A stretch of DNA of 62,915 nt, from IMG/VR virus record IMGVR_UViG_3300033142_001753, positions 1 to 62,915 of that record. One strand, 5' to 3'. A program made the position numbers and the translations under genes. Below, piece after piece: positions 1 to 62,915 of this stretch. The DNA is from a virus. Position 1 is the stretch's first letter. Each line of letters opens with the position of its first letter. Under the pieces are notes generated by a model, which saw only the letters and a program-made list of their open reading frames with translations, searched no databases and was not told where the DNA came from.

Positions 1-62
1 TGTTGCTACAAATGACCCACTACTCCTGGACTAGTGGGTCGTAAAATGTCCTTATATATAAA
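1..62. repeat. Terminal direct repeat, left copy
   Basis: These 62 bases are identical to 62854-62915 at the right end and to 17874-17935. They contain the first hairpin of the array (9-bp arms 14-22 and 32-40). The simplest reading is circular overlap of the assembled contig, but the third internal copy means the overlap alone does not prove circularity. Confidence 0.95.
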
Positions 63-366
63 GGACTTATAATCTAATGACCCACTAGTCAGACCTTAGT
101 GGGTCACAAAAAAGCCCTTATATATAAGGCACTTATTTAACTTTTGAACGAAAATGACCCGGACCCACACCTCAAAAAAAAGTAAAAATAAAAGGTGTGT
201 GTTAGAATAGTGGGTCCGGGTCATTTAGGGCATTTTAGGGTATAAGTTACTGGAATAATTCAATAAAATAGCGGGCCACTCCTCAAAAGAAGTGGGTCAT
301 TTATCTTATAACATACTGATATAATTAAGTAAAATTATGACCCACTAGTCAAAAACAGTGGCCCGC
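1..366. repeat. Hairpin array A (GACCCACTA / TAGTGGGTC family)
   Basis: No gene is seen here. The stretch holds four hairpins: 14-22 with 32-40 (9 bp); 79-87 with 97-105 (9 bp); a tall one, 152-168 with 210-226 (17 bp, GACCCGGACCCAC core) with an inner CACACCT/AGGTGTG stem at 166-172 and 193-199; and a nested one whose outer arms are 271-280/357-366 (10 bp) and inner arms 291-300/337-346 (10 bp). Between them lie AT-rich palindromes (48-66; the perfect 14-mer CCTTATATATAAGG at 116-129) and an iterated spacer resembling ACATACTGATATAATTCAAT. In the circle it lies between the HNH gene and the large terminase. Origin, packaging site or transcript-processing array are all possible. Confidence 0.85.
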
Positions 367-2380: not shown

Positions 2381-2862
2381 AAGTCATCTCCTTTCAGCAT
2401 CATATCATGTAATGTTTTCCCACGATCACCTACCTGCTCGTACCACGCGCTATGTCTCATCTCTTTAGCAGCCTGAGCATAGAAACCACATTTTACAGCA
2501 TTAATCATTCTTACAAACCCCCTAAAACCTCCAGGCCCCAGGTTATACCTCATATCAATTAAAGCCCATCGCCTGTTATTGTCCAAATCATATAGTGGCT
2601 TACCAAATATTTTACACAGATCCGCTTCACATTCTGCGATATCATTCCTAAGTAACATCAGGGCCTCGATCTTCGAGAGACCTTTACTTTCCAAATTTCT
2701 GCCGTAGCCTATAGTAAGATTCCCCTTGAGGTCCGAGTAGGCCATGGACCTAAAATCCTCGTGCCTCATAATTTGCTTTTCAATCTTCGACATCTCTCCA
2801 CCATATCCTGGGGTTACCGTAATACAAGCTATTATACTGCAAAGACAGAGATAGCGCCACAT
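2377..2862 (-). CDS. Endolysin, T4-type lysozyme (GH24)
   Basis: 161 aa. The catalytic triad has the classic T4-lysozyme spacing: E35 (HEDF), D44 (YSDLKG) and T50 (LTIGYGRN), with 8 and 5 residues between, as in T4 E11/D20/T26. The enzyme hydrolyses the MurNAc-GlcNAc bond of peptidoglycan. The first 20 or so residues are hydrophobic (WRYLCLCSIIACITV), a signal peptide or signal-anchor, suggesting export through the host Sec system rather than holin-dependent release. The C-terminal half has NLGPGGFRGF and the W-rich helix of the family. It lies 1 base after the 150-aa gene. A partner holin is not adjacent; the candidates are at 53156 and 22737. Confidence 0.88.
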   Translation of the reverse strand: MWRYLCLCSIIACITVTPGYGGEMSKIEKQIMRHEDFRSMAYSDLKGNLTIGYGRNLESKGLSKIEALMLLRNDIAECEADLCKIFGKPLYDLDNNRRWALIDMRYNLGPGGFRGFVRMINAVKCGFYAQAAKEMRHSAWYEQVGDRGKTLHDMMLKGDDL

Positions 2863-2863
2863 A

Positions 2864-3316
2864 TTAATGGATAATCAGAGTAACCAGGCGGTCTATGGCC
2901 AAGCTACCATCCTCGTCAATCAACCAATCATTGAGTATAGTATTAACATTTGCTGCATATTGCTCCCGTGATCCTCGCCATTCACACACCGGATCATTAA
3001 GTTTTAGGCCTTCAGATATAGCATGTCTTAATGCCGAGTACACAATATTTTCTGCTTTTTCTCTTTTTATTTTCATATTATGCAATACCATCTCTGTAGC
3101 TGTCATGTTTGCCTTCATGGTATCTAGTGATTTCCTTAATCTTTCAGCATCGTAGACCCAGCCTCTCCAGGTTTCTTCATCCCTGGGAACCATATCAAGC
3201 GGGTGGGACCTCTGAGTTTCTTCCTGCTCCCTAGTGATATCCTCTAAAAATTGTGCTATTAACTTTATCTGAGGATCTTTTTTACCTCTAATCCATTCGT
3301 TATATTTTGTGGTCAT
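2864..3316 (-). CDS. Hypothetical protein, 150 aa, helical
   Basis: Mostly charged helix (residues 15-100, probable coiled coil), no membrane span, no cysteines suggesting metal binding. It directly precedes the endolysin by 1 base and follows the 60-aa gene with no gap. Function unknown. Confidence 0.6.
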   Translation of the reverse strand: MTTKYNEWIRGKKDPQIKLIAQFLEDITREQEETQRSHPLDMVPRDEETWRGWVYDAERLRKSLDTMKANMTATEMVLHNMKIKREKAENIVYSALRHAISEGLKLNDPVCEWRGSREQYAANVNTILNDWLIDEDGSLAIDRLVTLIIH

Positions 3317-3499
3317 CTATGCCTCCAAGGCATCAGCCAAATCGTTGTATTTATCTAAGCCGGGATCATCAAATAGAGACTGCGCCACATATTTAACGTC
3401 ATCATTGCCGAATTTCAAAAATTCTTGATCGGCGAATTCCTCCCACTGTTCGGTAAATCTCCTCAAGTTTCGCACCTCATTTGTTGGTCTACCCTTCAT
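3317..3499 (-). CDS. Hypothetical protein, 60 aa
   Basis: Short acidic protein (MKGRPTNEVRNLRRF start). The start overlaps the preceding gene by 11 bases and the stop abuts the next start. No recognisable motif; retained for its tight fit in the operon. Confidence 0.5.
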   Translation of the reverse strand: MKGRPTNEVRNLRRFTEQWEEFADQEFLKFGNDDVKYVAQSLFDDPGLDKYNDLADALEA

Positions 3500-3803
3500 A
3501 TTGCCTCCTTAGCCATACAATTTCCCTGCAAATTCCAGAGTACGAATAGTGCCAAACTTCGTCCAGATTATCCCTAAATGTCTCAAGAGCATAGACTGAT
3601 ACCCTATACCACCATGCAGGAGGGAACATTTTAAGCTCTATAAAGAACTCATTAAAGTCTTTACCGATCTCAATATAGAGCACCCCCGCCCTGTAGCGTC
3701 TCACCCGGCTCAACCACTTATCATCCAATACCTTCTTGGATTCAAAGTTATGCCTGGCCAAGAGATAGGCTCTACTTAGGTCTATCGCTACCAATCTTTC
3801 CAT
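3489..3803 (-). CDS. Hypothetical protein, 104 aa
   Basis: Aromatic-rich protein (FPPAWWYRVSVYALETF) without a domain I can name. It overlaps the XRE-like gene upstream by 32 bases and the 60-aa gene downstream by 11, so all three are probably read from one message. Function unknown. Confidence 0.55.
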   Translation of the reverse strand: MERLVAIDLSRAYLLARHNFESKKVLDDKWLSRVRRYRAGVLYIEIGKDFNEFFIELKMFPPAWWYRVSVYALETFRDNLDEVWHYSYSGICREIVWLRRQYEG

Positions 3804-3972
3804 CTTTTATCCCCTTGAGCACTCTCAAAAACTTATCAGCCATGTTTGGAATAAGCCACACCCCACCACTCCAGTTCTTTACTGTCTGGAGCCGTATACC
3901 CATCACATCTGATACCCCTTGGTTGTTCAACCCAAGCTTTTTCTTGATATTCTCAAATTCTTTACTATCCAT
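3772..3972 (-). CDS. Small helix-turn-helix DNA-binding protein
   Basis: 66 aa. The pattern KKKLGLNNQGVSDVMGIRLQ followed by TVKNWSGG is a Cro/CI-type (XRE) helix-turn-helix with the recognition helix at about residues 27-38. Size and isolation are typical of phage Cro-like regulators. It overlaps the 131-aa gene upstream by one base. Which operator it binds is not visible; palindromes at 10593-10620 and 14773-14803 are candidates. Confidence 0.65.
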   Translation of the reverse strand: MDSKEFENIKKKLGLNNQGVSDVMGIRLQTVKNWSGGVWLIPNMADKFLRVLKGIKDGKIGSDRPK

Positions 3973-4367
3973 TATATTCCACCATAATATTTTGCAATAC
4001 TGGACTCTAATTCCTGCAACAGATCGGTTACAGTATACCCTTCGATCTTCTCCATATATTCAAGTAATTCCACCATATCCTGCAACTCATCTATCGTGGC
4101 TCTTAGGGCTTCCTGTATCTCTCCCTTGTCATCCCTGGCTCTTATTTTGTCCATCTCCTCGTCTTCGAGCGCCTGCTCAGTCCAGTCTTCTTCGATAGGG
4201 CTTCCAATTTTTATACCACCGTCGCAGAGGATACATCCTGTGGATTGAAGTAATTCGCTAATTCTTGCCATTTCCACGCTTTTGCGGTATCGTTCTCCGC
4301 GCTCTGCAGCAGTGCTTTGACAAAGATCTTCCATATCTCTTAATAGTTTGTCCATGGTATCCTCCAT
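3972..4367 (-). CDS. Hypothetical acidic helical protein, 131 aa
   Basis: Glu/Asp-rich helices with heptad character in the last 60 residues (IDELQDMVELLEYMEKIEG). No catalytic motif. It starts inside the 3' part of the 4258-4545 frame and is followed with a 1-base overlap by the XRE-like gene. Function unknown. Confidence 0.55.
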   Translation of the reverse strand: MEDTMDKLLRDMEDLCQSTAAERGERYRKSVEMARISELLQSTGCILCDGGIKIGSPIEEDWTEQALEDEEMDKIRARDDKGEIQEALRATIDELQDMVELLEYMEKIEGYTVTDLLQELESSIAKYYGGI

Positions 4368-6415: not shown

Positions 6416-7945
6416 TCATGATAGAAATGGATTCCTATATCCCCTCGTTGGTAAAATCCCTACTGTTTCTTGAGCCCTTGATACCCCAACGTAGAAAGTC
6501 CTCGCTTCATCGTCCCAGGCATTAAGATCATCTCTCATAGCTTTTTTAATCTTCCCCGTTATACTTGGATCAATCCAAACATGTCTCGAACTTCCACCTT
6601 TTACACTATGTACTGTACCTACGCATACCCGAGGAGTTTCAAAAAATTGACCTTGGTTATTTTCTGCTAAGTGATAAACAAGATCCCTTCCTTCAGCTTT
6701 AATCTTAAAATAATCCTGAATATCACCGGTCTTTTCTAAGAAGGTTCCCATGAAACCCATATTCATTAAACCAAAAAACTCGTATGTCTTTTTCTCGTTG
6801 AGAGGAAGGCCCTTGATTTTCTTTTTTGTGCCTCTCCTCATACAGAGCTTAGCTACACAATTTTTCGTCATCTGCTTGATCTCATAAATATTTAGCTCTT
6901 CACCCTTCAGAAACCGAAGATATATCCTAATGGATTCCGCGCCGTCAAGTCCCAGGGGATTCCAGGTCTTATCTTCCTTGCGGTATTGATTGCAAAAAGG
7001 AATATTCGCTTTTCGCAGTGCCGCAACATATCTTTTAACCTGGAATTGGCATCTGCAAAGAATCATATGGCTCCCCGGTAAAGAAAGGTCCGGCTCCTGG
7101 ACCCTCAGTACCTGGCCCTCGCCATACTTTGTGGTAGCTTTAAAATCGACCAACTCCTTAATATTTGCCTGCCTGATAATCTCAACCGACTTCTGTAATA
7201 CCGCTGGCGACAAGCGATAAGATTGAGTGAGCGGAATAACTTTGTCAGCCTTCAGATTAATAAAATTGTTGGGGTCACTGCCAGCGAAGCGAAAAATGGC
7301 CTGATTAGCATCACCTGCGTATAGCACAGTATCGCACTGTTCACCCCATTGTTTGACCAGGGCTATTTGAACCGCTGGTAAATCCTGGGCCTCGTCCACC
7401 ATAAGAACTTTGATATCAGGCGACAAACCCTGGTCCAGACATTGTTCGAGCATACCATTAAAATCAATCTTCCCCTCGTTGGCCATATATTCAAACCATG
7501 CTTTGCCGAGAAGCTGGCACTCTAGGGGCCACTCTGTATCAGGTACCATACGGCTCCTTAGCACCTGCATCTGATTAAAAATAGAGTCGTTTGTACCTCT
7601 CTCAACCTGTTCTTCGTCGTTTTTGGAACCAACTGCGAGCCGATAAGAGGGGTACATGTCATTGAATCCCCTAATATTAGCGGCGGTCTCCATCACGTCT
7701 TCTTTTTTCGTGTTCAGAAGATTAAAGCAGTGGCTATGTATGGTTCTGACATTATTGATGTCCTTCCAGTCAATATCAAGCTTCTTCTTTATCCGATCTT
7801 TGGCCTCCGAGACCGAAGCCACAGTATGGGATACGACGCCAAGGTCTTTAGAAAAATACTTATCGCAGGCCCTCTCGATTTGACGCATTATGTACTCCGT
7901 CTTACCACATCCGGGAGGGCCAATTATTTTATAGACTTTAGGCAT
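6416..7945 (-). CDS. UvrD/Rep-type superfamily 1 DNA helicase
   Basis: 509 aa. Helicase motifs in order: Walker A GPPGCGKT (residues 9-16), motif II VDEAQD (near 183-188), motif III GDANQAIFRF (211-220), motif IV-like QSYRLSP, and motifs V/VI VGTVHSVKGGSS and FYVGVSRAQE. These give an ATP-driven 3'-5' DNA translocase acting in replication restart or recombination. At 509 aa it is shorter than host UvrD (about 720), lacking parts of the 1B/2B accessory domains. The start lies 22 bases inside the 53-aa gene upstream. It belongs to the replication operon with the exonuclease, ATPase and SNF2-like protein. Confidence 0.9.
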   Translation of the reverse strand: MPKVYKIIGPPGCGKTEYIMRQIERACDKYFSKDLGVVSHTVASVSEAKDRIKKKLDIDWKDINNVRTIHSHCFNLLNTKKEDVMETAANIRGFNDMYPSYRLAVGSKNDEEQVERGTNDSIFNQMQVLRSRMVPDTEWPLECQLLGKAWFEYMANEGKIDFNGMLEQCLDQGLSPDIKVLMVDEAQDLPAVQIALVKQWGEQCDTVLYAGDANQAIFRFAGSDPNNFINLKADKVIPLTQSYRLSPAVLQKSVEIIRQANIKELVDFKATTKYGEGQVLRVQEPDLSLPGSHMILCRCQFQVKRYVAALRKANIPFCNQYRKEDKTWNPLGLDGAESIRIYLRFLKGEELNIYEIKQMTKNCVAKLCMRRGTKKKIKGLPLNEKKTYEFFGLMNMGFMGTFLEKTGDIQDYFKIKAEGRDLVYHLAENNQGQFFETPRVCVGTVHSVKGGSSRHVWIDPSITGKIKKAMRDDLNAWDDEARTFYVGVSRAQETVGILPTRGYRNPFLS

Positions 7946-12598: not shown

Positions 12599-14233
12599 TT
12601 ATTTTTTGAGGTAATTCAGGATAGCCATACTAACATCTTTTTTATTTTTTACAGCTTCCAGGATAACCGGGTCTAGAGTTTTGTCAGCCAGGAGGTAGTA
12701 ATAGGAACATTTAGTCTTTTGTCCTTGCCTATATATCCTGTCCTTCAACTGCTTGGCATTATCATAACTGTAAGAATTGCTATAACAGATACTCTCACTA
12801 CAATTAACCAAAGTATGGCCAAAACCTACACTCTTAGGGTGACAAATGGCGTACTGCAGGTTACCAGCTTTGAAGGATTTTAGTGTTTTTTGTTTTTCAT
12901 TCTCCGGTACTGTACCATTCAATACGCCACACCCAAGCCTTTTCTTTTTTAAAGCTTCTGAGATAATTCTTGCCTCTTCCTGAAATTCTATCCAAATTAG
13001 GACCTGCTTAGGCCCTATATCCTCAAGGAGAGACAAGAGTTCGTTGAGTTTTGTGTTTCCTAAATGGTGGGCTTTTGTTGTCTTCTTTATTCTGCCACTT
13101 TTTTCTTCAGTTGTTGTATCAAGGATAAAGCCACTCGATATCTGCCGGAGCTTCATTTGAGCCGTTACCGCACTTGGACTCGTAATCTTCTCGCCACTTT
13201 CCAGGATAGTTATTAAATTTGCCTTAATATCCCTGTAGTGTGTCCACTCCTTCTCAGATAGCTTAAAAATCCTCTTCGATTCAACAGTACCGGGCAGATC
13301 TATGACATCCTCTTTATCTACATATTCAGCTACAGACCTAATGTCCTCTACAAGCTTTTTCTTGTATTCTTCCCTCACCTTCCAGGTATAACCGCCGTAC
13401 CCCGAGGGTAAAAAATATTTTGTACGGAATTTGTAAAACGACTTGCCCCACAACAGGGGATCAAGTATCCTAATCTGCGTCCAGTATTCGAGCATATTAT
13501 TCGGGGCCGGAACTCCAGATAGCTCATAGACATATTTTACTGTATCGCAGAATTCAATCACCTTATCGGCGGTATTGCCTCGCTTAAAAGTGCGAATCCT
13601 TGCGCTTTCATCAAGGACAACTACTTTGTATCCTGCTCTCCCTAGTTTTTTGTCGATAGTTCTGAAAGATTCATAGTTAATGATACCAATATCTTTTTCG
13701 AGTGCCTTATTGAATGCCCCCGGACTCCTCTTTTTTGCTGCCCGCAGATTGACAACATCAAAGGCCCTGTATTGATCCTGGATTGTTTTAATTTCAGGTG
13801 ACGGATTTTTTATCCATGCCAAGGGGTTGTTGATTTCTTCCAACCAGGCGCCCTCTATGAGTGACAGAGGGCAGATGATTAAAGTTTTTACTTTATGATA
13901 TCGATATATCTCTAATGACAATAATGTCTTGCCAACCCCAGTGTCATGGTATATACCCATCCTATCCTGCCGCGCAGCCCTTCTTAATGCCGTTTTTTGA
14001 TGATCCATTAAGAAAGACGGAACAACAAGCTCCCTAGTTTCTTCTCTCGGTTCGGGAGGTAATACGCCGGGGAAAAGGCGGTTCAAGCAAATTCGGTTCA
14101 TGTAAACATCTTCGGTGGACCACTCTTTTTTTATCTTACTGAATTTCATCGCCATGTTTTGGCAGTGTTTAACTTTTTCCTTATCATAAGGAAATTTTAA
14201 TATCAGTCGATTTTTTTCTCTTCTTAATTGCAT
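12599..14233 (-). CDS. SNF2-family DEAD/H ATPase (superfamily 2 helicase-like)
   Basis: 544 aa. Motif I DTGVGKT (residues 97-103) follows a Q-like FLMDHQKTALRRA. Motif II is DESA in VVLDESARIRTFKRG, motif III region LSGVPAPNN, motif V ICYSNSYSYDNAKQ, and motif VI DRIYRQGQ. The D-E-S-A box and RxxRQGQ ending are typical of phage SNF2-like helicases, ATP-driven DNA translocases used in replication or recombination. AAGGA stands 6 bases before the start. Overlaps the HNH gene upstream by 10 bases. Confidence 0.88.
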   Translation of the reverse strand: MQLRREKNRLILKFPYDKEKVKHCQNMAMKFSKIKKEWSTEDVYMNRICLNRLFPGVLPPEPREETRELVVPSFLMDHQKTALRRAARQDRMGIYHDTGVGKTLLSLEIYRYHKVKTLIICPLSLIEGAWLEEINNPLAWIKNPSPEIKTIQDQYRAFDVVNLRAAKKRSPGAFNKALEKDIGIINYESFRTIDKKLGRAGYKVVVLDESARIRTFKRGNTADKVIEFCDTVKYVYELSGVPAPNNMLEYWTQIRILDPLLWGKSFYKFRTKYFLPSGYGGYTWKVREEYKKKLVEDIRSVAEYVDKEDVIDLPGTVESKRIFKLSEKEWTHYRDIKANLITILESGEKITSPSAVTAQMKLRQISSGFILDTTTEEKSGRIKKTTKAHHLGNTKLNELLSLLEDIGPKQVLIWIEFQEEARIISEALKKKRLGCGVLNGTVPENEKQKTLKSFKAGNLQYAICHPKSVGFGHTLVNCSESICYSNSYSYDNAKQLKDRIYRQGQKTKCSYYYLLADKTLDPVILEAVKNKKDVSMAILNYLKK

Positions 14234-16419: not shown

Positions 16420-17829
16420 ATGAGGGTACTAGAAGCCGCTCTGCGGTATAGAGAACTTGGATGGTCCGTTATTCCCATGAAGACAGGAAAGAATGAAGAG
16501 ACCGGCAAAGATGAAAAAAAGGTTCCTCATGTAAAGTGGAAAAAATATCAAACCGAACTTCCGAGTGAAGGTGATCTAAGATATTGGTTCGGCAAAAAAT
16601 GGCCAGATGCTAACATAGCCCTAATATGTGGTGAAGTAAGCGGAGTATTTGCTATCGACTTCGATAGTCGAAAGGCCCTAGAACATTATAAGGCTGTCTA
16701 TGATCCCGATGTCGAAGATACTATGTGCCAGACTACCGGAAGAGATGGTACAGGATTACATGCTCTATTCCATACAGTAGGCCATAGTATTCCACTGGTT
16801 CAACCCATACTAGAAAAGACTGATCTTAAGGGCGAGGGATCATATATAATAATTGAACCATCGGTCCATGAATCCGGCAGGCATTATAAATGGGGACACC
16901 TGAATCCTCTAACAGACGGTACCACGGATGTCCTGGATCCTCCAAGTGGATTTTTTAATATGCTACAGGATCACGAAAAGAGGAAGGAAGAAAAGGAGAA
17001 AGGAAAAAACGCCACACTAGGGGTTACTAAAAAAATAGGCAAAAATTCCGAAGGCTGGGAACAAGAAATTCTTATGGGCGTTACCGAGGGAGAAAGAGAC
17101 AACGCCGCCGCCAAGCTCGCCGGCCTATATCTCGCAAAAGATTATGAACAAAAAGATACCATGTCCTTACTATTAGGGTGGAACGAAAGAAATGTACCAC
17201 CTCTAAGCGAAAAGGATATCAAGAAGGTTGTACGGTCAATCTACGGTGAGCATGCCAAGGAGGCCGCGAGAGGAATTAGTGAAGCAGTTGAGAAAATAAC
17301 TATCCTACGATACCCAGACGGCAAAAATAAATATAAGATGTCGCTCGGACAAGGGCGGTCCTGTATGTTGACTATGGAAGATTTGTTGTCAAGCAGGCGA
17401 ACCACTGTAAGAATCGCTGATACCACAAGGGCTGTTTTTTATCCACCGAAACAGGGCAAATGGCTGGCCCTGGTCCAAATCTGGCTAAATGCAGCCGAAG
17501 AGAAAATTATTAGTGTTGAGGAATCGGAGCTCGGGGTTATTAAGGAAATTATTGCGGAATGGCTTGTCCAGTGGATAAGGCAAAAAGACTCAGAGCATAT
17601 TGATCATTCAGCCATGCTAAAGAATTGCTGTATCGTCCAGGACGGTAAACTTTACTTTACCCTACATCATATAGAAGAAGACCTAAGATTTAAAAATATC
17701 CGCATGACCCGTACCATGTTGTGTGAACTACTTCGGAGCTTGGGAGCCGGGGTCACTGAGCCTAGAGTACGTTTTGGAAAATCAAGGAGTCGCACCTGGG
17801 ATATAATGGAAGACTATTTTGAAAAATAG
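16420..17829 (+). CDS. Bifunctional primase-polymerase (prim-pol, AEP superfamily)
   Basis: 469 aa. The N-terminal ~190 residues form the prim-pol domain: LRYRELGWSVIPM, WKKYQTELPSE, a catalytic pair in VFAIDFDS (D80, D82), GRDGTGLHALFH, and a turn GEGSYIIIEPS. Residues ~225-290 (NAAAKLAGLYLAKDYEQ... LSEKDIKKVVRSIY) match the PriCT primase C-terminal helical domain. The last 180 residues are unassigned. It probably makes primers, or copies DNA, at the phage origin; unlike many relatives it has no fused helicase. AAGGA lies 7 bases before ATG. The hairpin array begins immediately after its stop. Confidence 0.85.
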   Translation: MRVLEAALRYRELGWSVIPMKTGKNEETGKDEKKVPHVKWKKYQTELPSEGDLRYWFGKKWPDANIALICGEVSGVFAIDFDSRKALEHYKAVYDPDVEDTMCQTTGRDGTGLHALFHTVGHSIPLVQPILEKTDLKGEGSYIIIEPSVHESGRHYKWGHLNPLTDGTTDVLDPPSGFFNMLQDHEKRKEEKEKGKNATLGVTKKIGKNSEGWEQEILMGVTEGERDNAAAKLAGLYLAKDYEQKDTMSLLLGWNERNVPPLSEKDIKKVVRSIYGEHAKEAARGISEAVEKITILRYPDGKNKYKMSLGQGRSCMLTMEDLLSSRRTTVRIADTTRAVFYPPKQGKWLALVQIWLNAAEEKIISVEESELGVIKEIIAEWLVQWIRQKDSEHIDHSAMLKNCCIVQDGKLYFTLHHIEEDLRFKNIRMTRTMLCELLRSLGAGVTEPRVRFGKSRSRTWDIMEDYFEK

Positions 17830-17935
17830 CCTTATATATAGGGGACTTATAGTTTATTCTTCTCCACACGTAATGTTGCTACAAATGACCCACTACTCCT
17901 GGACTAGTGGGTCGTAAAATGTCCTTATATATAAA
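17822..17935. repeat. 114-bp direct repeat, internal copy
   Basis: Identical to 62802-62915; its last 62 bases also equal 1-62. It starts within the last codons of the prim-pol gene (AAAAATAG) and includes the first hairpin of array B. Sequence diverges immediately after 17935 and before 17822. Confidence 0.95.
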
Positions 17936-18140
17936 AAAATGACCCGGACCCACTTCTTTAGAAAAAATAAAGTTTAAACTAGTGGGTCCGGGTCATTTAG
18001 GCTATTGGGTGTATTAACATACTGATATAATTCAATAAAACAGTGACCCACGCCTAAAAGGTGGTGGGTCACAAATTCTATAACGCGCTGATATAATTCA
18101 GTAAAATGTGGACCCACTAGTCTAAAAGTGGTGGGTCTGC
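17874..18140. repeat. Hairpin array B (GACCCACTA / TAGTGGGTC family)
   Basis: No gene lies between 17830 and 18256. The stretch holds four hairpins: 17887-17895/17905-17913 (9 bp); the tall 17937-17954/17981-17998 (18 bp, the same GACCCGGACCCAC core as array A); 18043-18051/18064-18072 (9 bp); and 18111-18117/18131-18137 (7 bp). Two copies of the ACATACTGATATAATTCAAT-like spacer precede the last two. This is a second, only partly identical version of the array at 1-366, kept in stem sequence while loops differ, which implies selection on structure. Confidence 0.85.
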
Positions 18141-18202: not shown

Positions 18203-18231
18203 TTGACAAGATGATCTTAATAAACTATAAT
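18203..18231 (+). promoter_or_regulatory. Consensus sigma70 promoter (TTGACA-N17-TATAAT)
   Basis: A perfect -35 (18203-18208) and perfect -10 (18226-18231) with 17-base spacer, 25 bases before the FmdB-like gene. The strongest promoter I see in the window; it would drive 18257-22684. Confidence 0.85.
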
Positions 18232-21144: not shown

Positions 21145-22053
21145 ATGTGTGAGTTTTTAAGTTGGATAGAATTACCAAATGGCGAACTTAAATATATCTC
21201 GAATTTTGAGCTCAATACAAGAAACGGACAGAAACTAAAAAAAGATTTGGGAATAAATTTTAGGGAAGAAATTGTAGGTCACGGCGCAATCAAGGCTTAT
21301 TTTGGTTTGAAGAATAAAGCAGGAAAAGATTGCGAATGCACCGACTTTTCGAGTCCTGACAATTTCCCCAAAGAGATAGCAAAAAAAATTAAATCAGGTG
21401 ACTTTAGTCAGATCGGATTGAATCGTCAACTATTAACAGGTCCGGCTTGGGAGCAATATGAGAAAGTTAGGGGTCCGGCTTGGGAGCAATATAAGAAGGT
21501 TGAGGGTCTGGCTCAGGAGCAATATGAGAAGGTTAGGGGTCTGGCTCTGGAGCAATATAAGAAGGTTGAGGGTCTGGCTCTGGAGCAATATGAGAAAGTT
21601 AAGGGTCTGGCTCAGGAGCAATATAAGAAGGTTAAGGGTCCGGCTTGGGAGCAATATGAGAAGGTTAGGGGTCCGGCTTGGGAGCAATATGAGAAAGTTA
21701 AGGGTCCGGCTTTGGAGCAATATAAGAAGGTTGAGGGTCTGGCTTGGGAGCAATATGAGAAGGTTGAGGGTCCGGCTTGGGAGCAATATGAGAAGGTTAG
21801 GGGTCTGGCTCAGGAGCAATATAAGAAGGTTAAGGGTCCGGCTTGGGAGCAATATGAGAAGGTTAGGGGTCCGGCTCTGGAGCAATATGAGAAAGTTAAG
21901 GGTCTGGCTCTGGAGCAATATAAGAAGGTTAAGGGTCCGGCTTGGGAGCAATATGAGAAGGTTGAGGGTCTGGCTCAGGAGCAATATAAGAAGGTTAAGC
22001 TAAGTATATTCTGGAAATTATTTTCAAATTCTCAGAATAGGCCGTGGCGGTGA
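21145..22053 (+). CDS. Tandem-repeat protein (17 x 11 residues, GPAWEQYEKVR type)
   Basis: 302 aa. Residues 1-98 form a non-repeated head (MCEFLSWIELPNGELKYISN...). Residues 99-285 are seventeen 11-residue repeats G(P/L)A(W/Q/L)EQY(E/K)KV(R/K/E). An 11-residue period with A, Y and V at fixed positions predicts a long right-handed coiled rod or extended helix. The tail LSIFWKLFSN is hydrophobic. Proteins of this look are common in phages from metagenomes, without known function. GGAGG precedes the ATG. Confidence 0.7.
   Translation: MCEFLSWIELPNGELKYISNFELNTRNGQKLKKDLGINFREEIVGHGAIKAYFGLKNKAGKDCECTDFSSPDNFPKEIAKKIKSGDFSQIGLNRQLLTGPAWEQYEKVRGPAWEQYKKVEGLAQEQYEKVRGLALEQYKKVEGLALEQYEKVKGLAQEQYKKVKGPAWEQYEKVRGPAWEQYEKVKGPALEQYKKVEGLAWEQYEKVEGPAWEQYEKVRGLAQEQYKKVKGPAWEQYEKVRGPALEQYEKVKGLALEQYKKVKGPAWEQYEKVEGLAQEQYKKVKLSIFWKLFSNSQNRPWR
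21439..21999 (+). repeat. 33-bp tandem repeats, 17 copies
   Basis: Starts GGTCCGGCTTGGGAGCAATA and repeats every 33 bases, with third-position and a few coding changes among copies. It encodes the 11-residue repeats of the 302-aa protein. Copy number is likely to vary by recombination or slippage. Confidence 0.95.
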
Positions 22054-31073: not shown

Positions 31074-33293
31074 TTAAATTAAGTTTTGCCAAGATCCGTT
31101 TTCATAGGCCTGAAATTTTTTTAAAGTTGAATCATAAAGTACCATCCCATTTAAGGCAGTTAACGCATTTTTTTGAGTTGTTGTCATCACTGTAAGATGC
31201 AAAGCCCCTGTTGTTGAGACCAAGTCTAATATGGCAGAGATGGCAGGTGACGTTCCAATCCCAACCTGGCCAGTACTTAACATAGTAATTATGTCCGTAT
31301 TGCTAATACCAAATCTTAGTTTTTCTCCTAATGTCCCATTGTTATATCGTATGTAGCCAGCATCTTGATCCGTTTTATCCCCAAGATCAATGCCGGCTAC
31401 CCCATTTATACCGGAAATTACCGCTAGAATAGAGTTCAAGTCACTCGTTCCATCATTTACAAATGCACCTACACGATCAGGACTAAGATTAGTTGTTCCA
31501 GAATATGATGCTGAAATTTGCATTTTTATAATTGGCTCCGTCGTCCCAATGCCAACATTTCCATCAGCATCAACACTCAAAGCAGGATCAGGGTCTCCGT
31601 CACTCGCCACAAGCTCACTGTGTCTATGCAAGGCGTTAGCCACCGAGTTATCAGTTAAGGTATCAAGCTGAGCCCCAGTAGCAGAAGTGTCACTGTGACT
31701 CACTATGCTATGCAATTCATTATGATGGTCATTAGCCGAAACATCTACCAAACTGTCATGAGACAGGCCGAGGCCGTCAATATCGATTTTCGTCTGATCG
31801 GCGGTGGCTCCGGCCTCTATCCCAGATATATCGATCCCGTCTACTGTTCCGCTGACAGCTATATTGCCACCGACATCTAATATCTCGGTAGGGATACCAC
31901 TCCCTATCTTCCACTTGCCATCACTCCAGATAGAGCCCCTTCGAGTATTCCCTTGCCAGAAACCTATCTCTCCAGATACCGCAGATAGGTGTAATCCTCC
32001 GGTCAAGTTTCCATCGGATTCTAACAATGCCGAATCTGTCTTGTACTGAAAACTCGTTAAATGTCCACCACTCAGGGCACTAAGGGACACACTACCGCCG
32101 TCAGACTGCGCCCTAAAAGCAGCCTTGGCCGCCAAACCATTTGTACCATTATCGACTACCAGGTTTGTTATGTCGTTTTGGTCCTTTACTATATCCCTGG
32201 TACCATCAACCAGGATATATTGATCGTTAGCTAAAAATCCTGCCAGGTTTGTGTGTTCAGCCGCTGTAAGATGGTAATACTCAGCCAGGGTCCCACCCTG
32301 CAAGCCTCCAAGGTTGTTATGCTCAGATGCAGCTACTGCCGTGAAGTGAGAATCCGTTACCATCTGTATCAAGGAGAAACTGCCACCAAGCTTAGGAGCT
32401 ACTATTTTTCCGATAAGAAGGCCGAAGTAGCTCAAATGATCTGGGTGCGATGGTTCGCCTGCTGCTTCTGCCTCTGCTAAGGTATAAGAATCTCTGCCAT
32501 AAAGGGCATAAACGTGATTATCTTCTATGTGTTTGTAGATCCAGAAATTACCATACTTATTGTTCCCTATATCACCGAGGCCTCCATCACCGTCGTCATA
32601 GTGGGCTGTATCTATCGTATTTGATGCTACACCCTCGGTCCAGCCTCCACCACCACCAGCCCGATAAATAGGAACAAAGGTTACTGCCGCTGAATTATAG
32701 GAGGATAGCTCAAATCTATTTATCCCTGCATACGCTATCCCTTCGGTCATCGTGAAGTTGTCCACACCTGAATAGGCTATGGTTGAGCCACTCTGAAGCT
32801 CCACGTCTCGCACTGCCCTGGCCCTTTCGTGTAGCTTCTCAACTCCGTCCTGTAATCTATGACCACTACTTAGATAATGGACAACACCCCCTCCATCCCT
32901 CATGACTCTCCCGATAGGGATATTTCTTTTATCAGTATCGTAGGGGTTATCTACCCCTATGCTTATGGTAGGTGTGCCATCACCATAATTAAGAATTACC
33001 CTATAAATGGTCTCCGCTAACGTTATCTCCTGGCTGTCCTGCTCGGCCAGGGATACCGCAACAAGATCCCCGGTAGAACTGTCGGCTGATCTAAGCATGG
33101 CAGTGAGTGTTGCAACCTTGAAGGTGTTGGCAGCAGTTCCTAGAGATATCTCCCCGCCGGATATTATCATAGGAGAATCTGCGGCACTTGATACATCTCT
33201 CAAGGACGACAGTTCAGTATCTATCTGAGCGTGAGTATTGGCACCTATATCTGCAAGCTCTAAATGACTATCTATTATTCTAATTGCTGTCAT
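31074..33293 (-). CDS. Tail fiber-like protein, 739 aa
   Basis: Repeated glycine, serine, threonine and aspartate-rich strands, with fiber-type signatures: DSHLELADIGANTHAQIDTE at the N-terminus, several HH.E.. and HRHSEL segments, and VGIGTTEP / VGIGTSPA near the C-terminus, as in phage fibers that end in an LNGMVLYDSTLKKFQAYENG cap. The last motif often forms the trimer tip. Probably the host-recognition fiber. The end abuts small coiled-coil genes and the start overlaps the 115-aa gene by 4 bases. Confidence 0.75.
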   Translation of the reverse strand: MTAIRIIDSHLELADIGANTHAQIDTELSSLRDVSSAADSPMIISGGEISLGTAANTFKVATLTAMLRSADSSTGDLVAVSLAEQDSQEITLAETIYRVILNYGDGTPTISIGVDNPYDTDKRNIPIGRVMRDGGGVVHYLSSGHRLQDGVEKLHERARAVRDVELQSGSTIAYSGVDNFTMTEGIAYAGINRFELSSYNSAAVTFVPIYRAGGGGGWTEGVASNTIDTAHYDDGDGGLGDIGNNKYGNFWIYKHIEDNHVYALYGRDSYTLAEAEAAGEPSHPDHLSYFGLLIGKIVAPKLGGSFSLIQMVTDSHFTAVAASEHNNLGGLQGGTLAEYYHLTAAEHTNLAGFLANDQYILVDGTRDIVKDQNDITNLVVDNGTNGLAAKAAFRAQSDGGSVSLSALSGGHLTSFQYKTDSALLESDGNLTGGLHLSAVSGEIGFWQGNTRRGSIWSDGKWKIGSGIPTEILDVGGNIAVSGTVDGIDISGIEAGATADQTKIDIDGLGLSHDSLVDVSANDHHNELHSIVSHSDTSATGAQLDTLTDNSVANALHRHSELVASDGDPDPALSVDADGNVGIGTTEPIIKMQISASYSGTTNLSPDRVGAFVNDGTSDLNSILAVISGINGVAGIDLGDKTDQDAGYIRYNNGTLGEKLRFGISNTDIITMLSTGQVGIGTSPAISAILDLVSTTGALHLTVMTTTQKNALTALNGMVLYDSTLKKFQAYENGSWQNLI

Positions 33294-48192: not shown

Positions 48193-48358
48193 GCCTCTCC
48201 TTTAAAACAGATACCTCATCTCTAATCTCGGCTCCTGCAGCCAGCCTTGCTGCTTTGAGACGCAAGACCAACCTTTTCCTTATCACCATGGATAGGAGGC
48301 ATGGGAGGCACAAGCAAAAAAATATCCTTAAATCTAAACATAATCCACCTTGGTAGGG

Positions 48359-48429
48359 TGCGGAGGTGAGAATCGAACCCACGATTACCGGAATATGAAC
48401 CCGGTGCCTTACCCCTTGGCTACTCCGCA
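48359..48429 (-). tRNA. tRNA-Met (CAU)
   Basis: 71 nt on the minus strand: acceptor TGCGGAG/CTCCGCA (7 bp), D arm GCC...GGC, anticodon arm CCGGG-TTCATAT-TCCGG with anticodon CAT, variable TAATC, T arm GTGGG-TTCGATT-CTCAC. Elongator Met or, if modified, Ile2 specificity cannot be told. No CCA is encoded; C, not A, is at the discriminator position. Confidence 0.85.
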
Positions 48430-59871: not shown

Positions 59872-62538
59872 TTATCCCTCCGGAAAAGCCTGAAAGTCAC
59901 AGCCATCGAAGAACCCGCCAGCGCCCGCAAAAGTCATAGCCAAGGCCATAAGGTGATCAGGGCTCCTAGCAAGCAGTTCCTTCATCTCTGAAGTCTTCAT
60001 GACCTCAACATACCCCGAATCCGTGTCATAGGTAGGGACCATCAGTTCCTCAAGCAGATCCTCGTCCGGGGGCAACATAGCTCCCGGATCACACCTTAAC
60101 CACTCCCTGACTCGCCACAAAAGTTCGTCTCTCAAAATACGGAAATCACCAAGCTCTGATTTTATAATAGGTTTCGACGCAACCTTGATACCGGTTGCGA
60201 CTACGCCCTCCCCATATTTCTGCATATGGGGAGCCACACCACATCCTACGCCAGTTGCATCAACCATCGCCCGGTCAATTCCTTGATGATCGCTGTACCA
60301 CTGAATAGCCTTATCACCTGTCTCTACAGTATCGATTCCGCCCCAGGTATCAAATGGTGACAAATAACCACCGTATCGTCCGCAGGCAACATTACTATCA
60401 TCTCCCATCTCGGCTACATCTAGGCCCATGACACCTTTGGCTCCATGAGGCGGGGCCTCACCGTACTTGGCTACATAAACATCATATCTGGCTCTCGCCG
60501 CAGATACCCACTCCTCTGAAATAAGCTGGTTAGACCCCTGTGCAGGATAACGGCCAAGGACCATATACGAGAATGAGGGATTTTTGATCTTATATTGGCC
60601 AGCAACCAGCGGGGTATATGCCTTACCTGCCTGAGAATACCCTACAGCACCTACCAAAAAATCAGGGAGGGTATACACACTCCTCTCGCTGATCTTGTCA
60701 CCTGGCCTTATTGGCCTAGTCCATTCATTGATCCGACGTACAGTAACCTCTCTGCTCACTGCACCAGGGATAAGGTCTTTACCTGTTATGACATTTGGAT
60801 GCCTAAAAGCTGAAAGGTGTACCACATTCGCTGTTTTGTCCCTGATCATCCTATAAACAGGGCCAGCGGCATGCCGGGGGTTGAACATAATAAGAAGCCG
60901 AACAAAACCACCAGACATACAGGACTCAGTGCCTTTATAGACCGGACCTGGTATAGCATCTCCCTCGTCATAAGCGAAGAGCATATGGCGTTGATGTTTT
61001 CCAGAAAACTTAGCTTCCTTCTCCTGTTCAGTCCCTGAACTCGGTATAGTCACTCCAATCATGTAATCTTCTGGACCGCGCCTCACATCCATTGAAGTAA
61101 CAATATGGCCAGCGAAGAGCTGAGGATGATCCCTTATTACACTCCCTATCTCTCCCCAAAGAAGGTTTTTAAGGTTATCATATGGCGGGGCAGCGGCAGT
61201 AAAGACCTTGGTGTCATGAAAGCAGAGATAAAACCAGACTGCGAGGCGAGCAGCTATCCAGGTATTGTGAGTAACTGTAAAATTTTCAGTGAGATATAAA
61301 CCATCAAGATTGTCAACAGATATGCACTGAGAATCCATCATACCAACATATTTTACAGCCTTAATTACCCTTTGTGCCTTTCTCTGTGCCTCGCATTCCG
61401 GCACATATCGCCTAACCTTACGAGGTAATAGAAATGGACAAAAAGGGACCTTAATGTAAAGATTGTAGGCAGTTTTACCTTGAATCTTCTTACCATTTTT
61501 TTTGTAGTAAGGCTTTTTACGACCTATCGTGGCAGTGCCACCAAGTGACCAAACAAGCGACTGAACTTGTTTAGCCAGGGAGGGGCTTATAGTGGCATAT
61601 GATATTTTATGCCTGGTATCAATGTATCCATCTGCATCAAGTAAGCCAGCGAGTAGAGCCTTGCGATCAATGACACAAGACCTTGTGTAAGCATCTGGAA
61701 TGAATTTTTCGTATGATCCTGCCTCAATTAATCCGTATTTTCTTATTACATCCCTCACAAAATTAGGTTTACCTTTATCAGTTGCGAAAGATATACACCT
61801 ACATTTTTGAGCCTGAACCTTGTGATCTCTAAGTTTATAGCTCCCCATTCTGCGCTGAAGCTCGTCACAGATCCAACCATCACCCGACGTAAGAGTTATA
61901 TTGGTCTTGAAACATCCATCGCCGAGCAGGGCTCCCATGACATACGGATCAATGCCAAGATATTTTTTTGAATACTCAACAGCTCTGCACATCGGAACGT
62001 GAAGTATCTGTTTGATCTTTTGCTTAATTTGCAGGGTTGTGAGTGTACGATACGGACGATCACGGTATTGATCTGATGAACTCTGAACGGACCATAAATG
62101 ATCTTCACTTGCGAATACAGAAGTCCTGTCATTAAAGAAAATCTCATATGTTGGCTGTGAACCTTGAGGATAGATAGCTTTAACTTTTGCAGGTTTACCG
62201 TTCTGACCAATCACCATATCGCCAGGGATAACATCACCCATTTGCTTACTACCATTAGGGGTCATTACGCCAGTACTTAGGGGTTGCGACTTACCTGTAC
62301 CATTGGCCGAGACTGCTACAGTAACCTGGTTATCCCTCACAGACAATGCCATTTTCTTCAGATCATCTGTGAGTTCTTCTCCGAGTTCAGTCTCAATAAA
62401 GGTTATAGGGTCACCCCGGTACTTGGTGTACTTGTCATCGAGGATGAAGGTGTTTATTGTTTTCGCAGGAGTCCTGGAAAGGATAAGAGATGTGAGGCTA
62501 TCGACTGCCTCGTCTGATAATTTAATAGGAGGGCTCAT
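59872..62538 (-). CDS. Terminase large subunit, interrupted by an intein
   Basis: 888 aa precursor, 547 aa after removal of the 341-aa intein. Extein Walker A is ANGTGKS (residues 78-84), cut directly before TW of the P-loop; Walker B is FAYDEGDA; the nuclease half has MGLDVAEMGDDSNV and MVDATGVGCG. It drives ATP-dependent DNA packaging and cuts concatemers. The intein (residues 85-425) must be spliced out for the ATPase to work. The gene ends in DNA that is duplicated downstream. It starts 8 bases after the small DUF6496-type gene. Confidence 0.92.
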   Translation of the reverse strand: MSPPIKLSDEAVDSLTSLILSRTPAKTINTFILDDKYTKYRGDPITFIETELGEELTDDLKKMALSVRDNQVTVAVSANGTGKSQPLSTGVMTPNGSKQMGDVIPGDMVIGQNGKPAKVKAIYPQGSQPTYEIFFNDRTSVFASEDHLWSVQSSSDQYRDRPYRTLTTLQIKQKIKQILHVPMCRAVEYSKKYLGIDPYVMGALLGDGCFKTNITLTSGDGWICDELQRRMGSYKLRDHKVQAQKCRCISFATDKGKPNFVRDVIRKYGLIEAGSYEKFIPDAYTRSCVIDRKALLAGLLDADGYIDTRHKISYATISPSLAKQVQSLVWSLGGTATIGRKKPYYKKNGKKIQGKTAYNLYIKVPFCPFLLPRKVRRYVPECEAQRKAQRVIKAVKYVGMMDSQCISVDNLDGLYLTENFTVTHNTWIAARLAVWFYLCFHDTKVFTAAAPPYDNLKNLLWGEIGSVIRDHPQLFAGHIVTSMDVRRGPEDYMIGVTIPSSGTEQEKEAKFSGKHQRHMLFAYDEGDAIPGPVYKGTESCMSGGFVRLLIMFNPRHAAGPVYRMIRDKTANVVHLSAFRHPNVITGKDLIPGAVSREVTVRRINEWTRPIRPGDKISERSVYTLPDFLVGAVGYSQAGKAYTPLVAGQYKIKNPSFSYMVLGRYPAQGSNQLISEEWVSAARARYDVYVAKYGEAPPHGAKGVMGLDVAEMGDDSNVACGRYGGYLSPFDTWGGIDTVETGDKAIQWYSDHQGIDRAMVDATGVGCGVAPHMQKYGEGVVATGIKVASKPIIKSELGDFRILRDELLWRVREWLRCDPGAMLPPDEDLLEELMVPTYDTDSGYVEVMKTSEMKELLARSPDHLMALAMTFAGAGGFFDGCDFQAFPEG
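59882..59927. repeat. 46-bp direct repeat, copy inside terminase 3' end
   Basis: Encodes AGAGGFFDGCDFQAFP at the C-terminus of the large terminase. Identical to 59439-59484. Confidence 0.97.
61264..62286 (-). other. Intein in the terminase Walker A motif, with LAGLIDADG motifs
   Basis: 341 aa, from Q85 (QPLSTGVMTPNG) to N425 (TENFTVTHN), followed by extein T426. Splicing blocks: the opening VMTPNGSKQMGDVIPGD, TSVFASEDHLWSV, and the end YLTENFTVTHN. The first residue is glutamine instead of the usual cysteine or serine, so the first step may be non-standard. The homing domain shows MGALLGDGCF and LLAGLLDADGYID, the two LAGLIDADG helices, with acidic residues intact: it may still be mobile. 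Confidence 0.85.
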
Positions 62539-62726: not shown

Positions 62727-62801
62727 CGCTGACTCCTTTATTTAAAGATACCACATTATGGTCCACAGGTCATGCCTTGAGCCAGGATAGGTGTGTAGTT
62801 A

Positions 62802-62915
62802 AAAAATAGCCTTATATATAGGGGACTTATAGTTTATTCTTCTCCACACGTAATGTTGCTACAAATGACCCACTACTCCTGGACTAGTGGGTCGTAAAAT
62901 GTCCTTATATATAAA
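62802..62915. repeat. 114-bp direct repeat, right-end copy
   Basis: Identical to 17822-17935; its last 62 bases also equal 1-62. The repeat contains the first GACCCACTA hairpin and stops exactly at the contig end. The 75 bases between 62727 and 62801 show no gene. Confidence 0.95.

Follow-up and report, generated by a model that had tools for sequence, protein, structure and literature searches.

Candidate paired replication origins and their putative reader in a tailed virus genome

Introduction

Two intergenic regions of a tailed-virus genome carry clusters of inverted repeats, and the question that they raise is what such arrays do for the virus. An earlier note placed them at 1-366 and 17874-18140, where inverted repeats are indeed present, and offered three candidate roles: origin, packaging site or structured RNA family. 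The stretch of DNA analyzed here, designated the “window”, is the whole of IMG/VR record IMGVR_UViG_3300033142_001753 (62,915 bases) and encodes terL, a portal protein and a major head protein. To our knowledge, replication start sites are not known for most uncultured tailed viruses. In this case comparative sequence alone identifies a candidate pair of origins, the probable reader of these sites and what appears to be a switch in the specificity of that reader. Among the roles proposed, that of an origin fits best, and we hold with somewhat better than even confidence that the two arrays are paired replication origins recognized by the C-terminal domain of the virus primase.

Results

Virus and host

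The portal of the window shares 56.5% identity with its counterpart in “Methanosarcina virus MetMV”, the sole match in 50,697 phage records. Further portal relatives (54-64% identity) come from deltaproteobacterial MAGs (Syntrophaceae and others), among them one whose 188-kb contig also carries bacterial genes along with a tyrosine recombinase, and one more is in a Ca. Methanoperedens MAG. The host of MetMV was assigned only through CRISPR matches, correlated abundance and k-mer similarity (PMC7164591). Due to this in silico assignment and to the deltaproteobacterial relatives, a bacterial host is more likely for the group comprising MetMV and the window virus, and the Methanosarcina host of MetMV is doubtful (loci L133, L140-L143 of a deltaproteobacterial contig, and MK170447). 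TATATA spacers within the arrays were consequently not taken as archaeal promoters. The spacer element TTATATATA had been considered as an archaeal TATA box following the MetMV match, and was dropped in view of the same relatives and of a perfect sigma-70 promoter flanking array A.

Other features of the window were recorded in passing. TerL (59872-62538, minus strand) is 888 aa long versus ∼545 in relatives; the extra stretch follows the GTGKS motif, has VTHN as its last residues and is intein-like (partial TerL/helicase PHROG matches). Positions 21145-22053 encode a protein built of tandem GPAWEQYEKV/GLALEQYKKV decapeptide repeats. The sole Rfam-type match in the entire window is a tRNA at 48358-48429.

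Layout of the two arrays

Array A occupies 17,832-18,137 and begins 3 bp past the primase stop codon. Array B comprises 62,799-62,915 and continues at 63-364; the two contig ends overlap by 62 bp, so that the array runs across them, and its counterpart lies uninterrupted and with the same neighbors inside the contig of a relative (G008, below). Each array is ∼300-420 bp long. Common to both are 117 bp (62,799-62,915 versus 17,819-17,935, 99% identical) that include the last primase codons and, on the array A side, CTTATATATA spacers and a short pair at 17887-17913. The earlier note gave four short hairpins and a tall one to each array, a description that suits array B (short-short-tall-short-short) but overcounts array A, which has three short and one tall (short-tall-short-short).

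The half-sites are inverted 8-bp sequences, GACCCACT in the window, with starts ∼19 bp apart (offset 18-20 bp). In array B the first short pair (GACCCACT...AGTGGGTC) is at 14-40, the same genomic copy as 62867-62893 through the end overlap, and the second is at 79-105. The tall repeat (152-226) has tandem half-sites GACCC-G-GACCCAC, 17-bp perfect arms and an A-rich middle. It is followed by pairs at 273-298 (GGGCCACT...AGTGGGTC) and 339-364 (GACCCACT...AGTGGCCC), whose arms are partly non-complementary, with outer bases mismatched (GGGCC with GGGTC, and GACCC with GGCCC, respectively). Inversion as a source of these two mismatched pairs fails to reproduce the observed arms. In array A the tall repeat (AAATGACCCGGACCCACT ... 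AGTGGGTCCGGGTCATTT) is at 17937-17998, a second short pair at 18045-18070 lies exactly 56 bp beyond the end of the right half-site of the tall repeat, and a third (18111-18137) lies 40 bp past the second. The center of the tall dyad is A/T-rich and 26-39 nt in length. Two spacer elements recur: TTATATATA (17832-17840, and at 17925, 52, 118, 62812 and 62905) and the extended -10-like TGATATAATT (18023-18032, plus strand, and at 18089 and 317), each with one copy elsewhere in the window (38645 and 57701, respectively).

The pattern GACCCACT-N3..20-AGTGGGTC has four matches in the window versus 0 in 100 dinucleotide shuffles, and every copy of GACCCACT in the window (14/14) falls inside the arrays, which make up 1.3% of the sequence. 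Array A folded as single-stranded DNA scores 10.5 SD better than shuffles (z = -10.5). Perfect short inverted pairs, counted strictly, number 2-3 per array versus 0.15-0.4 in shuffles, a modest excess; the significance of the arrays is based on the repeated motif and the fold z-score, not on this count. An exact-motif search of IMG/VR for GACCCACT hairpins returned 35 matches, all single and unrelated. No half-site hairpin was called as an intrinsic terminator, the sole call within an array being the TATATA spacer at 114-130.

Arrays in related viruses

A portal search for relatives gave 53 loci. Array-bearing relatives have portals 81-87% identical to that of the window, and their arrays occupy the two corresponding positions, with the order of parts unchanged. 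Two of them, G006 (58.8 kb) and G008 (56.5 kb), are long contigs with overlapping ends, syntenic with the window, in which the primase gene is immediately followed by array A, and array B precedes terL; array B is also present in three shorter contigs (L045, L089 and L131). The shared order runs from TATATA spacers with short pairs, through the tall dyad with its A/T-rich center, to short pairs with A/T-rich spacers. From the right half-site of the tall dyad to the next pair the distance is 56 bp in 5/5 arrays having both intact, and gaps between short pairs are mostly 37-40 bp. Note that the comparison covers one virus clade, and that these counts are not phylogenetically independent because the viruses are related; comparisons of arms within a virus are unaffected by relatedness between viruses.

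Within a genome, arrays A and B are 87% and 91% identical, and 72% in G008; A arrays of different genomes are 67-71% identical. By these values the two arrays of a genome evolve in concert, as expected if one protein reads the sites and recombination homogenizes them. The locus beside array B is variable, holding an HNH gene in the window, a stand-alone gene for the primase C-terminal domain in G008 and L089, and a zinc-finger protein in L045/L131.

In the window, G006, G008 and L045, array B is just upstream of terL, as would suit a pac site; alternatively, both arrays could be centromere-like. In either case a virus DNA-binding protein would bind them, with array A as a second copy. The location of the contig ends in the repeat is also compatible with packaging, but is accounted for by an assembly that ended at a repeat. 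Array A, moreover, adjoins the primase gene, and array B is accompanied by a copy of the primase 3' end or by the domain gene, which points to replication; no partition gene was recognized among 20 window proteins scanned. The packaging role suggested earlier would account for the position of array B but leaves array A unexplained, and we consider packaging or partition very unlikely.

Half-site switching and stem pairing

The relatives carry GGGCCACT/CGGCCACT/GGGACACT as half-sites instead of GACCCACT, of which G006 and G008 have 0 copies each. Copies of the three replacement sequences fall inside the arrays in 14/17 cases in G006 and 12/17 in G008. The earlier note had argued from stems that are kept, with differing loops, that structure is under selection, and had named compensatory changes in relatives as support. 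The stems of relatives do differ compatibly; the changes, however, are genome-wide and not made hairpin by hairpin.

For 22 short hairpins, the pairing of cognate arms was compared with that of arms from different hairpins of the same virus. Core pairing was 0.847 for cognate arms, 0.83 for non-cognate arms of the same virus and 0.756 for arms of different viruses (global p = 0.002). Cognate arms showed no excess complementarity, with 149 pairs versus 148.5 +/- 2.8 in within-virus shuffles (p = 0.49), in a test able to detect structure, as full complementarity would give 176 pairs. The corresponding values for the tall dyads were 15.6 (cognate), 10.4 (overall) and 15.75 (other array of the same virus), which leads to the same conclusion as the short hairpins. 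The same within-virus shuffle (p = 0.49) gives no covariation of paired positions within hairpins of the kind used to recognize structured RNA, and no pRN1-type maintenance of stem integrity by compensatory change, independent of sequence, was found.

These results bear on whether the stems themselves are selected, either as folded RNA or as extruded or single-stranded DNA cruciforms as in pRN1, whose replication requires stem integrity (PMC4234260). The fold score of array A would agree with this, as would the tall arms, which pair perfectly in both the window and G006 with different flanks (AAAT/ATTT versus TTTT/AAAA). However, arms find no better partner in their own hairpin than elsewhere in the virus, several pairs in G008 and the window are broken and uncompensated, the constant spacer lengths are suggestive of a nucleoprotein complex on duplex DNA, and the arrays match no Rfam family. 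We regard selected single-strand structure as improbable, and the proposal of a structured RNA family is unsupported, with neither an Rfam match nor an excess of cognate-arm pairing. Because stem arms change genome by genome and not per hairpin, the pattern suggests inverted sites at which a DNA-binding protein acts in trans, and speaks against local folding of RNA or single-stranded DNA.

The primase and its C-terminal domain

The window primase (16420-17829, plus strand) contains Prim-Pol PF09250 (aa 7-160) and PriCT_1 PF08708 (aa 216-275), both above gathering score, followed by a conserved 185-aa C-terminal domain (aa 285-469; 17272-17826, plus strand). No helicase domain was found in this protein by Pfam or PHROGs; separate helicase genes are at 6416-7945 and 12599-14233. 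AlphaFold2 run with five sequences (pLDDT 79.8, pTM 0.51) predicts a winged helix at the C-terminus. Foldseek matches the domain to the C-terminal portions of phage primases (E 1e-8 to 1e-6) and weakly to TcpK, an oriT-binding winged-helix protein (prob 0.99, E 0.04), and PHROG 21866 “primase” matches it as well.

G006 and G008 have a CHC2/Toprim primase core in place of PrimPol, yet retain PriCT-1, the C-terminal domain (58-63% identical to that of the window) and the downstream array. The exchange of a PrimPol for a CHC2/Toprim core among close relatives, with PriCT-1 and the C-terminal domain retained, is seen when window 16420-17829 is compared with L100:330-1865 and L103:15710-17296. G008 (32305-32928) and L089 each have, next to array B, a separate gene for the domain alone; at the window array B, the last codons of the primase are all that remains. 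Since it persists with the array through the core swap and stands alone beside array B in two viruses, the predicted winged-helix domain is the best candidate for the array reader. Replacements of lysines specific to the window lie in and near the predicted recognition helix and wing; they would be compatible with a change of specificity, but represent a single event.

Neither the C-terminal domain nor an array of this kind was found in four near-complete relatives (G016, G017, G018 and MetMV). Six direct CGACCACA repeats, iteron-like, lie within the MetMV PrimPol gene (L040:3115-3425; gene 2513-4195) and are possibly that virus's own origin, without arrays of the window type. The domain had no match, at the sensitivity used, in 84,980 GTDB species genomes, phage records and plasmid records, and none in the nearest deltaproteobacterial prophage genomes, in a search run without a positive control. 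The primase of Dinoroseobacter phage R5C shares the C-terminal fold, and its gene runs straight into a helicase gene; no array was found in the 56 kb of R5C examined, so the domain may be a general part of primases and its link to the arrays accidental.

The winged-helix protein, as the primase tail or the stand-alone copy, could instead be a regulator that binds inverted operators between TTATATATA and TGATATAATT promoter elements and controls the post-primase operon, terL and its own gene. In the window the TGATATAATT spacers match an extended -10 and lie before short pairs, array B faces the terL operon, and in G008 and L089 it is just upstream of the stand-alone domain gene. Yet the strong promoter that drives the operon after array A (TTGACA-17-TATAAT, 18203-18231, plus strand) is downstream of the array and outside it, and is kept in relatives (perfect in G006, TATAGT in G008). 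Sigma-70-like matches are no more frequent in the array regions than in shuffles, arrays A and B of the window are oppositely oriented relative to neighboring transcription, and the repeated geometry with a large central dyad goes beyond what operators need. An operator role is, in our judgment, unlikely.

Discussion

The arrays are most likely the two replication origins of a tailed dsDNA virus, or one origin with an accessory origin site. As in initiator-primase origins, one protein combines a primase with PriCT-type and predicted C-terminal DNA-binding domains, and a cis array of sites with A/T-rich segments adjoins its gene. By analogy with PriCT-1/WH initiators (PMC5862659) and with P4 and pRN1 (PMC4234260), we infer that the half-sites are bound by the C-terminal domain, that DNA is opened as a result and that the arrays are where replication begins. 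PriCT-1 with HTH/WH tails serves in origin recognition or unwinding (PMC5862659). The C-terminal winged helix, probably together with PriCT-1, would bind the inverted half-sites flanking the larger central dyad; the bound protein would open A/T-rich segments, including the center of that dyad; the fused primase would thereby be placed to begin synthesis; and the second array might raise or regulate initiation. GC skew at third codon positions gave no replichore switch at the arrays and no origin signal.

A broader and more tentative possibility, to which we give less than even weight, is a portable initiator module: a winged-helix domain with paired arrays of inverted sites in fixed geometry, joined anew to two primase cores unrelated to each other (PrimPol and CHC2/Toprim), present also as a stand-alone gene, and respelling all sites genome-wide upon a shift in specificity. 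This would be a previously undescribed class of dual-origin virus replicon. If so, origin recognition and not the primase would be the stable part of the replicon, with cores swapped around a constant PriCT-1/winged-helix/array unit.

Comparison with known systems

In P4, a second repeat region, crr, is separate from ori. The window genome is similar in having two separated repeat regions and a primase protein with a (predicted) C-terminal winged helix; that of P4 alpha binds ori repeats (PMC4234260). Unlike alpha, the window primase has no fused helicase domain and has a PrimPol rather than a Toprim core (although its relatives do have Toprim), and its repeats form inverted pairs together with a tall dyad at the center; the likeness drawn with P4 is one of features. 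The ColE2 origin is small and single, whereas the window has two arrays of ∼300-420 bp. ColE2-type initiator primases nevertheless share with the window protein a PrimPol, a PriCT-1 and a C-terminal DNA-binding region (predicted in the window), and their PriCT-1/HTH module needs no ATPase to unwind the origin (PMC5862659).

The pRN1 origin is a stem-loop located immediately past the 3' end of the primase gene, and in the family of pRN1 and Bordetella phage BPP-1 such stem-loops are proposed origins in plasmids and phages (PMC4234260). These resemble the window in that a large stem-loop directly follows, on the 3' side, a PrimPol replication gene whose product has a C-terminal winged helix (predicted in the window). 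They differ in that pRN1 has a single stem-loop, lacking both iterons and sequence conservation, in contrast to the many short inverted pairs and conserved motif of the window, and in that the SF3 helicase is missing from the window protein. RepA_N-type iterons of plasmids and PLE satellites are semi-palindromic, with inverted repeats converging on a poly-A tract (PMC7145576), comparable to the central tall dyad; no RepA_N protein was recognized in the window, and both protein family and array layout are different. By analogy, the arrays and their putative reader are most likely akin to the known initiator-primase origins (P4 ori/crr, ColE2 and pRN1).
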